IMG/VR virus record: IMGVR_UViG_3300025769_000762
Location: 1 to 25,419 of that record
Length of the DNA: 25,419 nucleotides
Source of the DNA: a virus
Strand: one strand, 5' to 3'
In this document: piece by piece, positions 1,992 through 18,584 of the stretch
Layout: every line of letters begins with the position of its first letter
Position numbering within the stretch: the first letter of the stretch is position 1
Translations under genes and position numbers: made by a program
The notes under the pieces: generated by a model
The model's input: only the letters and a program-made list of their open reading frames with translations
The model's database searches: none
Told to the model about the DNA's origin: nothing

Positions 1992-2632
1992 AGTTTGAAC
2001 AAGATTTGTACCAGGACAATGGCGAACTTGTTTATTCACATGATGGTTTAGGTATTAATCAAATACACAAGCATTACGCTTATATGCAAGACTTCTTTCC
2101 TAAAACACAGGGCAGAACTGCAATTGATGTTGGCTGTCGCTTTGGTGAATACACACACTACTTACTTAAACATTTTGATAGTGTAAAATGCTTTGAGCCT
2201 CGCAGACAAACACTGGTAGGGCATTTCAATAGAAACATTCCTAAATCTCGTGTGCAAGTTTGGAACTGTGGTATTGGAGAGAAGCAAGGATTAGTAAACA
2301 TGAATGGTGGCGCAATACACAAAGACAATACAGTGGAAATACAACCTAGTAAGTATAGAACAGATGTGCCTGTTTATACACTTGACAGTTTTGAGTTTGA
2401 TAGTGTAGACTTTATTAAAGTAGATGTTGAAGGCTATGAACTTAAAGTATTACAAGGCGCACTAAAAACAATAGAAAAATACAAACCCATGATAGTAATC
2501 GAGCAAAATGGCGGTGACATTAAATATGGCTGGGCAACAGAAGAAAATCAAGCAGGCACTTTTTTAGAAACACTGGGTTACACTAACACTGGTGTATGGA
2601 AAAATGATTTTGTGTTTGAGTACAAAGGATAA
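1979..2632 (+). CDS. FkbM-family SAM-dependent methyltransferase
   Basis: The protein has 217 residues. Motif I is AIDVGCRFGEY (about 48-58), an acidic residue follows in 'KCFEPRRQ' (70-77), and the diagnostic FkbM block VDFIKVDVEGYELKVLQGA spans about 143-161, followed by 'KPMIVIEQNGG'. The length and motif order are normal for the family. FkbM enzymes O-methylate small molecules and sugars, so here it probably methylates a glycan made by the neighbouring transferases. It overlaps the upstream gene and is separated from the next by three bases. A second, more diverged FkbM gene occurs at 22402-23187. Confidence 0.82.
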   Translation: MEELKFEQDLYQDNGELVYSHDGLGINQIHKHYAYMQDFFPKTQGRTAIDVGCRFGEYTHYLLKHFDSVKCFEPRRQTLVGHFNRNIPKSRVQVWNCGIGEKQGLVNMNGGAIHKDNTVEIQPSKYRTDVPVYTLDSFEFDSVDFIKVDVEGYELKVLQGALKTIEKYKPMIVIEQNGGDIKYGWATEENQAGTFLETLGYTNTGVWKNDFVFEYKG

Positions 2633-2635
2633 ACA

Positions 2636-3409
2636 ATGAGCAATTTAAGTGTAATACAAAATGTAACAGAAGTGCGCAGTGATCCGTTTCCTTATGTTTG
2701 TGTAGAAGGCGCAATGCCTGATAGACTGTACAGAGAACTAGAAGCAACCTTTCCAGAGGATATGATTGTTAAACACACACAGCCACATGATGGCGGTATT
2801 ACATATCGCTTTAAATGTAAAGAAGCAAAAATTTGGCAAGTGCCTGCTATTTGGCAAGACTTTTTTGCATATCACACAAGCCCAGAATACTTTCGCGCTT
2901 GTGCAGAACTATTTGCACCGCATATTGTTGCAGCATATGGTGAAGAGTTTTATGAAAATTTAAAAACAAAACCAGTTAGTGTGCGTGATGTAGATAACAG
3001 TGGGCACTATGTAACAGACTGTCAATTTGTTGTACACGAGCCTGTAGATCAAACAGGTACTAGTCGCACACCGCATGTGGATAACCCTGTAGAGATTTAT
3101 GCTGGACTGCTATACATGCGCAAGCAAGCAGACATGGCACAGGGCGGCAACTTTACAGTGCATCGTGTAACTGGAGAGATCACAGAAGTAAACAAGAGCT
3201 TGGGCAGACAAGTTGACAACAGTTTGCACGAGCCTGTGTTTGAAGTGCCATATCGTGCAAATAACTTTTGTATGTTCCTAAATGTAAAAGACAGTGTACA
3301 CAGTGTCACATCTCGTATTGCTCCGACAGAGCGTAGACACAGCATTAATATTATTGGTGAATTTAATGGCACAGGTAAGATGTGGAAGGTGCGGGAGATT
3401 AAAAACTAA
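2636..3409 (+). CDS. 2-oxoglutarate/Fe(II)-dependent oxygenase-like protein
   Basis: The protein has 257 residues. It shows 'TPHVDNPVEIYAGLLYMR' with the HxD iron ligands at about H147 and D149, a glycine-rich turn 'AQGGNF' near 169-173, the distal histidine in 'DSVHSVTSRIAPTERRHSINI' (H222) and a basic residue near 233-234 to bind 2-oxoglutarate. This is the double-stranded beta-helix pattern of prolyl-4-hydroxylase-like enzymes common in marine T4-like phages. It sits between two methyltransferases in the glycan operon, which suggests hydroxylation of a sugar or of a virion protein; the substrate is unknown. Its stop codon shares a base with the next ATG (TAATG), so translation is probably coupled. 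Confidence 0.75.
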   Translation: MSNLSVIQNVTEVRSDPFPYVCVEGAMPDRLYRELEATFPEDMIVKHTQPHDGGITYRFKCKEAKIWQVPAIWQDFFAYHTSPEYFRACAELFAPHIVAAYGEEFYENLKTKPVSVRDVDNSGHYVTDCQFVVHEPVDQTGTSRTPHVDNPVEIYAGLLYMRKQADMAQGGNFTVHRVTGEITEVNKSLGRQVDNSLHEPVFEVPYRANNFCMFLNVKDSVHSVTSRIAPTERRHSINIIGEFNGTGKMWKVREIKN

Positions 3410-9842: not shown

Positions 9843-9880
9843 GTGCTATATTAATATAGTAAGTTGAAATTGAGGAGAGA
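9825..9880 (+). promoter_or_regulatory. Early promoter/leader cassette A
   Basis: TTGACA 9825-9830, 16-base spacer, TATATT 9847-9852, AGTAAGTTG from 9858, and ribosome-binding site GAGGAGAGA 9872-9880, three bases before ATG 9884. The -35 box lies within the last codons of the glycosyltransferase. It is one of six copies of the same layout in the window. Confidence 0.85.
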
Positions 9881-10445: not shown

Positions 10446-10500
10446 TTGACATAATCTGTATCTGTGCTATGTTTAATAGTAAGTTGTTTTTGAGGAGAGA
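10446..10500 (+). promoter_or_regulatory. Early promoter/leader cassette B
   Basis: TTGACA 10446-10451, 16-base spacer, TATGTT 10468-10473, AGTAAGTTG from 10478, ribosome-binding site GAGGAGAGA 10492-10500 (followed by another G), ATG 10504. It starts four bases after the stop codon of the preceding gene. Confidence 0.88.
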
Positions 10501-10503
10501 GAT

Positions 10504-12944: not shown

Positions 12945-12999
12945 TTGACACATCCTATATATGTGTTATTGTTAATAGTAAGTTAAATGTTTGGAGAGA
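12945..12999 (+). promoter_or_regulatory. Early promoter/leader cassette D
   Basis: TTGACA 12945-12950, 16-base spacer, TATTGT 12967-12972, AGTAAGTT from 12977, ribosome-binding site GGAGAGA 12993-12999, ATG 13005. The spacing places the upstream ATG at 12987 before the ribosome-binding site, so it is not the start. Confidence 0.85.
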
Positions 13000-16453: not shown

Positions 16454-16504
16454 CAGAACTTCTATTCGTGTTAATATGTATAGTAAGTTGATTTTGAGGA
16501 GAGA
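16450..16504 (+). promoter_or_regulatory. Early promoter/leader cassette E
   Basis: TTGACA 16450-16455, 16-base spacer, TAATAT 16472-16477, AGTAAGTTG from 16482, ribosome-binding site GAGGAGAGA 16496-16504, ATG 16509. The -35 box shares its TGA with the exonuclease stop codon. Confidence 0.88.
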
Positions 16505-16714: not shown

Positions 16715-16780
16715 TTGACATACATACTACAGATGTTATTATATAAGAGTAAGTTAAACAAATGATGTTGGAGAGAGAGA
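16715..16780 (+). promoter_or_regulatory. Early promoter/leader cassette F
   Basis: TTGACA 16715-16720, 16-base spacer, TATTAT 16737-16742, AGTAAGTT from 16748, ribosome-binding site GGAGAGAGAGA 16770-16780, ATG 16782. Its leader is about ten bases longer than in cassettes A, B and E. Confidence 0.85.
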
Positions 16781-16781
16781 C

Positions 16782-17816
16782 ATGTCATATGTTCTAGTAA
16801 AAAGCGGAGAATACAGGAACCGCACAGTAAAGAATACTGTTTTCCCTGTTATTAAGAATTTCCAGTTTGGCGCAAACGGCGGATACATCACAGTTGATGG
16901 GTCAAGTGTGTTTGGTGCAGAATTTTCAAAAGTTCGCATTAAAACAACTCAGGATCAACTTGATTTTGTCGGACAAGATGTTTTCAATAAACAAGAAAAC
17001 GTTAAGGTCGAAGTTGCTGCCTCTTCTACATTTACAAAAGAGCAAGACGATCAGCGTATGAAAGAAATAGGCAATCGTTTTGAGATACTGGATCAGATGA
17101 CCAAGTCGCTTGTAAAAAGTGATATTCGTGCGTTAATTGTTACTGGACCTCCAGGTGTTGGTAAGAGTTATGGTGTAGAAGAAGAACTTACTAAGAGTTC
17201 ACTTTTCGGAGATATGACAAATCAACGGCGTAAATACGAAGTAGTAAAAGGTGCAATGACTGCACTAGGTCTTTACGCTAAACTGTATGAATACTCAGAC
17301 AAAGGCAACGTGCTTGTGTTTGATGATTGTGATAGCGTATTGATGGATGACCTCGCACTAAACATTCTCAAGGCTGCACTTGATAGCGGCAAGAAGCGGA
17401 TGATTTACTGGAATGCAGAGAGTAATAAACTGCGTAGCGAAGGCATCCCAGATAAGTTTGAATTTAAAGGCAGTGCTTGCTTTATTACAAACATTAAATT
17501 TGAGAATGTGCGTAGCAAGAAACTGCAGGATCACCTAGAAGCATTGCAGTCACGCTGTCACTACTTGGATCTTACACTGGACACTATGCGTGATAAGATC
17601 CTGCGTGTAAAGCAGATTGCAAAAGTTGGTGACCTGTTTAAGGATTACAGTTTCGATCTTGAAGAAGAAAAAGAGATCATCGACTTTATTGCTGATAACT
17701 GTAACAAGTTCCGTGAGGTAAGTTTGCGGATGGCACTTAAAGTTGCCGATCTTAAAAACATCTCACCAAACAACTGGCGTGCGCTTGCAGAAAGCACTTG
17801 TATGAAACGAGTGTAA
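16782..17816 (+). CDS. AAA-type ATPase
   Basis: The protein has 344 residues. An N-terminal part of about 110 residues (basic beta-rich, then helical 'EQDDQRMKEIGNRFEILDQMTKSLVKSDI') precedes a single ATPase domain. Walker A is GPPGVGKS (122-129), Walker B is 'NVLVFDDCDSVL' with DDCD at 181-184, and a sensor-like 'SACFITNIKF' and arginine 'ALQSRCHYLDL' follow. Proteins of this architecture occur in many T4-like marine phages near replication genes; the role may be remodelling of a replication or packaging complex, and it is not the gp44 clamp-loader ATPase. It is driven by cassette F, and the structured gap 17817-17927 follows it. Confidence 0.8.
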   Translation: MSYVLVKSGEYRNRTVKNTVFPVIKNFQFGANGGYITVDGSSVFGAEFSKVRIKTTQDQLDFVGQDVFNKQENVKVEVAASSTFTKEQDDQRMKEIGNRFEILDQMTKSLVKSDIRALIVTGPPGVGKSYGVEEELTKSSLFGDMTNQRRKYEVVKGAMTALGLYAKLYEYSDKGNVLVFDDCDSVLMDDLALNILKAALDSGKKRMIYWNAESNKLRSEGIPDKFEFKGSACFITNIKFENVRSKKLQDHLEALQSRCHYLDLTLDTMRDKILRVKQIAKVGDLFKDYSFDLEEEKEIIDFIADNCNKFREVSLRMALKVADLKNISPNNWRALAESTCMKRV

Positions 17817-17840
17817 CGGTTGTTAAAAATTTGACGGTTT

Positions 17841-17915
17841 GGGCCGCGGCTCCTCTCTCCTCTCTCCTCCAATCGCGGTCCTGGGTGGGTAGTTTAGAAA
17901 TAGACTACCCACTCA
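17841..17915 (+). ncRNA. Candidate structured anti-Shine-Dalgarno RNA (two abutting hairpins)
   Basis: Hairpin 1: GGGCCGCG 17841-17848 pairs with CGCGGTCC 17874-17881 (8 bp, one G-U), exposing a 25-base loop made almost only of C and T. In the loop, CTCCTCTCT is repeated, and TCTCTCC occurs twice. Hairpin 2 starts at the next base: TGGGTGGGTAGT 17882-17893 with ACTACCCACTCA 17904-17915 (12 bp, one G-U). No T-run follows, so this is not a normal terminator. The loop is complementary to the GGAGAGA ribosome-binding sites of five early cassettes, by up to ten bases for cassette B. No promoter is visible directly upstream, so it would be made as part of the ATPase transcript's 3' end or processed from it. 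Expression is unproven. Confidence 0.5.
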
Positions 17916-17927
17916 CTTTATGTTATA

Positions 17928-18584
17928 ATGGATATTATGCTTTATACAGTTGGCGACAGTTTTACATACGGACAAGAATTACCCAATCCAGAACAGCAAG
18001 CCTGGCCTGTGTTACTTGCTGATCGTCTTGGTTACCGTTTGATTAATGATGGCAGACCTGGTGTTGGCAATGAGTACATTGTGAAACAGACTATTAAAGC
18101 AGTTGCCAAGTACAAACCAGAACTAGTAGTTGTTGCTTGGACAAGTTGTGGCAGACAAGAGCATGCTGATGAATGGGGTGCTTATGACATATGGCCCGGA
18201 TGTAGTAGTCGTGTGTTTGATGAAGATCCCAAACTGCAATATCGCAAAGAACTTATTAAATATATTACTGTGAATAACAATGCCGAGCATGAATACAGGC
18301 GTTGGTTGCGGCAAGTTATACTTTTACAAAGTTTCTTGCAAAATCACAGCATAGAGTATATAATGTGTAATGTGTTTGATAATCAGCACCGTTTTGGCAA
18401 ACACTATAAAGACAATCAAGGATACTACGAACTGATAGACCATACTAAGTTTGTGGGTTGGCCCATGGATGGATTTGTTGAATGGGCATATGATACACCG
18501 CATGGGCCCGGCGGACATCCACTGGAACAAGGCCACAAACAAATAGCGGAAAAGATACATGAAGCCTGCAATAGTACATGTTAA
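17928..18584 (+). CDS. SGNH/GDSL-family hydrolase-like protein
   Basis: The protein has 218 residues (ATG 17928; ATG 17937 would also work, giving 215). Block I is 'LYTVGDSFTYGQE' with the nucleophile serine at residue 11. Block II/III glycine and asparagine are in 'INDGRPGVGNEYI'. Block V is 'HGPGGHPLEQGHKQIAEKI' near the end, where the HP histidine completes the catalytic pair but the usual aspartate before it is a glycine. Such proteins de-acetylate or esterify glycans or lipids. No good ribosome-binding site is seen. TATAAT at 17924-17929 overlaps the start and could be a promoter for a leaderless transcript. The end overlaps the UvsW start by 26 bases. Confidence 0.72.
   Translation: MDIMLYTVGDSFTYGQELPNPEQQAWPVLLADRLGYRLINDGRPGVGNEYIVKQTIKAVAKYKPELVVVAWTSCGRQEHADEWGAYDIWPGCSSRVFDEDPKLQYRKELIKYITVNNNAEHEYRRWLRQVILLQSFLQNHSIEYIMCNVFDNQHRFGKHYKDNQGYYELIDHTKFVGWPMDGFVEWAYDTPHGPGGHPLEQGHKQIAEKIHEACNSTC

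Follow-up and report, generated by a model that had tools for sequence, protein, structure and literature searches.

Two abutting hairpins in the gap after an AAA ATPase gene raised the question of what the pyrimidine-rich loop of the first may base-pair with, and to what effect. They lie at 17841-17915 of the window, by which we mean the whole 25-kb IMG/VR virus fragment that was analyzed (IMGVR_UViG_3300025769_000762). The original prediction gave their sequence and coordinates correctly, and RNAfold agreed: on the plus strand, 17835-17925 folded into this pair of adjoining hairpins and nothing else (-37.6 kcal/mol, z = -5.4), and none of 200 shuffles folded as well, whereas the minus-strand fold was unremarkable (z = -1.6). 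The first hairpin (HP1) had 9 pairs, including one G-U pair at the loop, and a 23-nt loop; the 8-bp stem and 25-base loop described earlier hold if that G-U pair is left uncounted. The second (HP2) was followed by a weak U tract (CACTTTATGTT), with terminator polarity on the plus strand. The window contained only one HP1-like hairpin, and each related record contained none to two. An Rfam scan of the window returned no covariance-model match over 17841-17915 (E up to 5), and phage records searched by BLASTN with this locus gave no match either.

Cassette F consisted of an early promoter, the ATPase gene, HP1, and HP2; its promoter (GGTTGAC ... AGTAAG) and AGTAAGTT leader were common to six cassettes. 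From the ATPase promoter to HP2, the plus strand had no further promoter-like site listed. The element is thus most readily taken as the 3' UTR of the ATPase transcript, which puts cassette F, whose own gene it follows, on the same transcript as HP1. A PDB profile search with the ATPase found no relative, and the helicase encoded downstream of the element was closest to those of large phages of Sinorhizobium, Agrobacterium, and Pseudomonas. HP2 was overlapped at 17901-17937 by a promoter-like pair (TAGACT-17-TATAAT, TG preceding the -10). The SGNH-type gene downstream has its second ATG approximately 7 nt past the end of this pair, with like spacing in several relatives, which suggests a leaderless mRNA without a Shine-Dalgarno sequence (SD).

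Table. Coordinates of cassette features and of the hairpin element in the window.
Feature	Position	Strand	Remarks
Cassette A RBS GAGGAGAGA	9872..9880	+	9-nt loop match
Cassette B RBS GAGGAGAGAG	10492..10501	+	10-nt loop match; best duplex energy in the window
Cassette D RBS GGAGAGA	12993..12999	+	7-nt loop match
Cassette E RBS GAGGAGAGA	16496..16504	+	9-nt loop match
Cassette F early promoter	16715..16742	+	TTGACA-N16-TATTAT, TG before -10
ATPase gene RBS GGAGAGAG	16770..16777	+	8 nt, perfect pairing with the HP1 loop
AAA ATPase, phrog_1250 / T4 NrdC.10 family	16782..17816	+	homologues annotated NrdC.10; HP1 and HP2 in its 3' UTR
AAATTTGACGG motif	17827..17837	+	duplicated in tandem-element relatives
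HP1	17841..17881	+	variable stem presenting the pyrimidine (anti-RBS) loop
HP1 loop CTCCTCTCTCCTCTCTCCTCCAA	17850..17872	+	predicted pairing region
HP2	17882..17915	+	terminator-like; closes the ATPase transcript with a stem of 15 pairs and a GAAA loop

The perfect loop matches claimed for cassettes A, B, D, E, and F were exact at every length, and cassette C was the weaker match it had been said to be (6 nt only). Shuffles of the loop composition attained the summed match in 69 of 5000 cases; this, together with the single such hairpin in the window and conservation of the element in relatives, argues that the matches were not due to chance. By duplex energy, the window's four best start sites were all among the five leaders A, B, D, E, and F, and the top four were early-promoter genes both in the window and in a relative (G001). 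To that extent the proposed shut-off of early genes as a set held at the level of sequence; what it missed was that the element forms the 3' UTR of the ATPase gene, whose own RBS emerges from comparison of relatives as the most widely conserved target.

ATPase relatives numbered at least 564 among the matches listed; their genomes were metagenomic fragments, and all evidence from them was comparative. The same design stood in the gap 3' of the ATPase stop in most of the close relatives, and some had a simple terminator only. Stems were unrelated between lineages (CCGCGG, TTAGTATC, CTGTGTC, AGTCGTG, and others): the sequences of 24 distinct HP1 arm pairs differed widely and still paired, while the loop stayed C/U-rich. 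Pairing averaged 7.75 of 8 positions compared with 3.5 when arms were swapped, a figure partly built in because the arms were picked by folding. As MAFFT misregisters the stems of whole HP1 elements when loop lengths are unequal, covariation was scored within a single clade of 12 sequences, in which 100% of stem cells were paired (17-48% in slid controls), both sides had changed in five of eight pairs, and covariation was 0.606 against 0.305 when shuffled.

The element at the ATPase 3' end belongs to a family of large aquatic phages. Isolates of the T4-like, KVP40-like, RaK2, and Ackermannviridae groups had leader/3' complements of 4-6 nt, not above background, and none of the cultured phages tested clearly carried the element. 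Nor did any of three ATPase relatives in bacterial assemblies (two alphaproteobacterial bins and one Methylophilaceae bin). The cultured PA5oct-like Pseudomonas phages L077 and L454 had an 8-nt leader/3'-end complement (ATGCTACT) at their NrdC.10 homologue, which was not counted as an instance because it lies inside a stem and is near chance (3% of genes reach 8).

Loop conservation in relatives with differing leaders, which the original prediction had named as a test of itself, came out in its favor, as loops changed together with leaders. Across 174 relatives, the core of the element co-evolves with the ATPase's own RBS: the mean longest complement between leader and 3' end was 7.21 nt, compared with 5.72 ± 0.09 after genome swap. 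The corresponding values in 82 genomes were 7.74 and 5.94 ± 0.14 nt, with 0 of 10,000 permutations above 6.55. When one genome was kept per cluster at 15% or 25% protein divergence, z was 8.6 or 5.8, respectively; with nine clusters only, z was 3.5 and single draws reached p = 0.10. Matches of at least 7 nt covering the RBS were found in 99 of the 174 genomes, compared with 29.7 when swapped (maximum 42), and the 3 nt beside (3' of) GGAG were matched in 53 of 89 genomes against 12.0 ± 2.9 expected. On the protein tree, leader and loop switched jointly at least nine times. The pairing segment was more unpaired than its surroundings (0.72 vs. 0.48), and it was predicted to be partly paired in 42 of the 99. 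A 7-nt RBS match was absent from 75 of the 174 relatives, in many cases because the next ORF begins at once, and many relatives with such an ORF had no element. The nearest-pair sign test (p = 0.06) was uninformative because near relatives share the same loop/leader pair, and the independent-pairs tests, as read from their output, had too few pairs and were underpowered. That element and RBS have kept matching in approximately 100 related viruses though both change points to a gene-silencing, base-pairing RNA.

The element/leader pairs included TAGCTCCT/AGGAGCTA, ATACTCCGTTA/TAACGGAGTAT, TTACTCCT/AGGAGTAA, AGCCTTTCAACA/TGTTGAAAGGCT, TAGTTACTCCT/AGGAGTAACTA, TTGCTCCTT/AAGGAGCAA, TTGCTCCG/CGGAGCAA, GAATGCTCCT/AGGAGCATTC, TTAGCTCCTA/TAGGAGCTAA, TTTAACTCC/GGAGTTAAA, and TGTGTCAG/CTGACACA, the last with its leader site upstream of the SD. 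A wobble intermediate was seen in L023 and L025, which keep UUGCUCCUU opposite AAGGAGUAA. In some lineages, the loop matched sites of the AAAGGC type or one lying upstream of the SD. Relatives L345-L364 (e.g., L350, L351, and L359) had the hairpin AACTC-TGTGTCAG-GAGTT after the ATPase stop, and its 8-nt loop matched the leader upstream of the SD, not the SD itself.

Start sites were also ranked over whole records, with gene starts predicted by a simple ORF rule. The ATPase RBS was the best match among predicted starts in 4 of 10 records examined (G009, G005, G003, and G006; 8-12 nt), and it was the only strong match there. Several starts, many with early promoters, matched in G020, G002, G001, and the window, and G004 and G007 showed no such preference for the ATPase. 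When each gene's own leader was compared with its own 3' end, the ATPase ranked first in G005, G001, G003, and G006 and tied for first in G009.

We consider it likely that the element is a 3'-UTR device directed at its own mRNA, whose RBS it would pair with either in cis or, once processed to a small RNA, in trans, and that in the window's clade it was retargeted to the RBS family of the early genes. HP1 would present an unpaired sequence complementary to the ribosome-binding region of the ATPase gene, and HP2 would terminate the transcript. Pairing of loop and RBS, within the mRNA or by a small RNA cut from its 3' end, would block ribosome binding, so that the ATPase gene would curb its own expression as transcript builds up. 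The loop has expanded, in the window's clade, to a tract of CTCCTCTCTCC repeats that matches the RBS shared by other early cassettes as well, and the same RNA would then probably lower the early genes as a group. That the RNA accumulates and represses, and whether it does so in cis or in trans, we infer from sequence comparison. A point against cis action is that, with translation under way during transcription, early ribosomes would already load while the 3' element is yet to be made.

A purely trans-acting phage small RNA that shuts off the early regulon, with the ATPase as one early gene and its 3' UTR merely the place where the RNA is made, is a possible though less probable account. It would suit the window, where cassette B offers the loop a better fit than the ATPase's own RBS does, and B, A, and E are all at least equal to F. 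It would also suit the tandem elements of L009, L010, L045/L046, and G020, in which copy a lies in the ATPase 3' UTR and copy b lies farther downstream, with copy a and its terminator-like stem between it and the ATPase. Other early leaders (of the GAGGAGAGA type) are matched over 9-10 nt by copy b and over 6-8 nt by copy a in L009 and L045. Against this account stand the four records with a strong match to the ATPase RBS only, and the element's constant place at the ATPase 3' end across widely diverged relatives. A single element, with a b-type prefix, is present in the window: the AAAAATTTGACRG motif lies directly 5' of b-type elements (window 17827-17837; the second element in L009 and L045), occurs in two copies in some relatives, is rare elsewhere in the records, and is followed by no recognizable -10.

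The self-pairing 3' UTR that we prefer can be extended, tentatively and with less confidence than we place in self-pairing, to a history in which a self-limiting element was duplicated and then redirected in trans, as a small RNA that silences the early genes, with co-evolution keeping its loop matched to the early RBS. Such an RNA might be the RNA counterpart of the T4 protein RegA, which represses early mRNAs at translation.

An ordinary terminator region with a low-complexity pyrimidine tract that complements RBSs simply because SDs are rich in purines is improbable. C/U tracts fit any purine SD, and some relatives have just the terminator; however, stem covariation, the genome-swap tests, and matching of flanks beyond the SD rejected this explanation at conventional levels, leaving phylogenetic non-independence as its remaining escape. 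Mimicry of the 16S rRNA tail (the anti-SD), titrating ribosomes or SDs generally, had been offered as an alternative and seems very unlikely. CUCC and CCUCC are frequent in the loops, but complementarity passes the SD core and switches with the phage leader (TTG, ATA, TTA, TCG, or ATG before CTCC; AGCCTTTCAACA), and the TGTGTCAG core matches a site upstream of the SD. The CsrA/RsmA sponge also proposed for the minus strand, which does carry GGA repeats, seems extremely unlikely, as terminator polarity and fold favor the plus strand and GGA is missing from the core's minus strand in lineages whose core is CCTTTCAAC or TGTGTCAG.

Pairing of a 3' UTR with its own start region has precedents in bacteria. 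In Staphylococcus aureus, a UCCCCUG motif in the icaR 3' UTR was shown experimentally to block initiation by pairing with the SD of its own transcript, with cis or trans action left open (PMC3868564). The phage element likewise has 3'-UTR sequence complementary to the SD of its own mRNA; icaR is a single bacterial gene, whereas here a phage gene is involved, the loop is often presented by a hairpin, and co-evolution extends over approximately 100 viral genomes. The 3' ends of the OppZ and CarZ transcripts of Vibrio cholerae, for which RNase E processing was shown, base-pair with their own transcripts and inhibit translation (PMC7398697). They share with our element a terminator-like 3'-end hairpin and a complement to the gene's own translation initiation region, but they are cellular, whereas the putative processed RNA considered here is that of a phage. 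Cuckoo RNAs (alpha-r14, NfeR1) have sequence-variable stems, an anti-SD seed in unpaired regions, and an ultraconserved CCUCCUCCC motif (PMC10746234). The variable stems seen here, presenting an anti-SD seed, resemble them, but the loop varies with the leader; we claim no membership, as the defining CCUCCUCCC is absent from the window loop CTCCTCTCTCCTCTCTCCTCCAA and the element had no Rfam match. In hok-type mRNAs, the 3' end folds back onto the translation initiation region (discussed in PMC3868564); those belong to toxin-antitoxin systems, a context that the phage element lacks. Among phages, the c4 RNA of P1 and P7 is believed to present RBS-complementary sequences in loops (in PMC12197685). 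It serves temperate-phage immunity and involves a different gene. The c4 RNA is not known to be a 3' UTR of its target.

If the proposed pairing is real, it would represent base pairing of 5' and 3' UTRs that reaches far back in evolution, here among viruses, with ready-made compensatory variants for testing and a simple route from a self-regulating 3' end to a regulator of a whole gene set. Comparison of a gene's own RBS with its own 3' end is a search rule usable on any phage genome. A separate observation came from L241 (the G020 record), where the leader of another gene (2245-3351, minus strand) had a 14-nt perfect complement within the 75 nt past that gene's stop.
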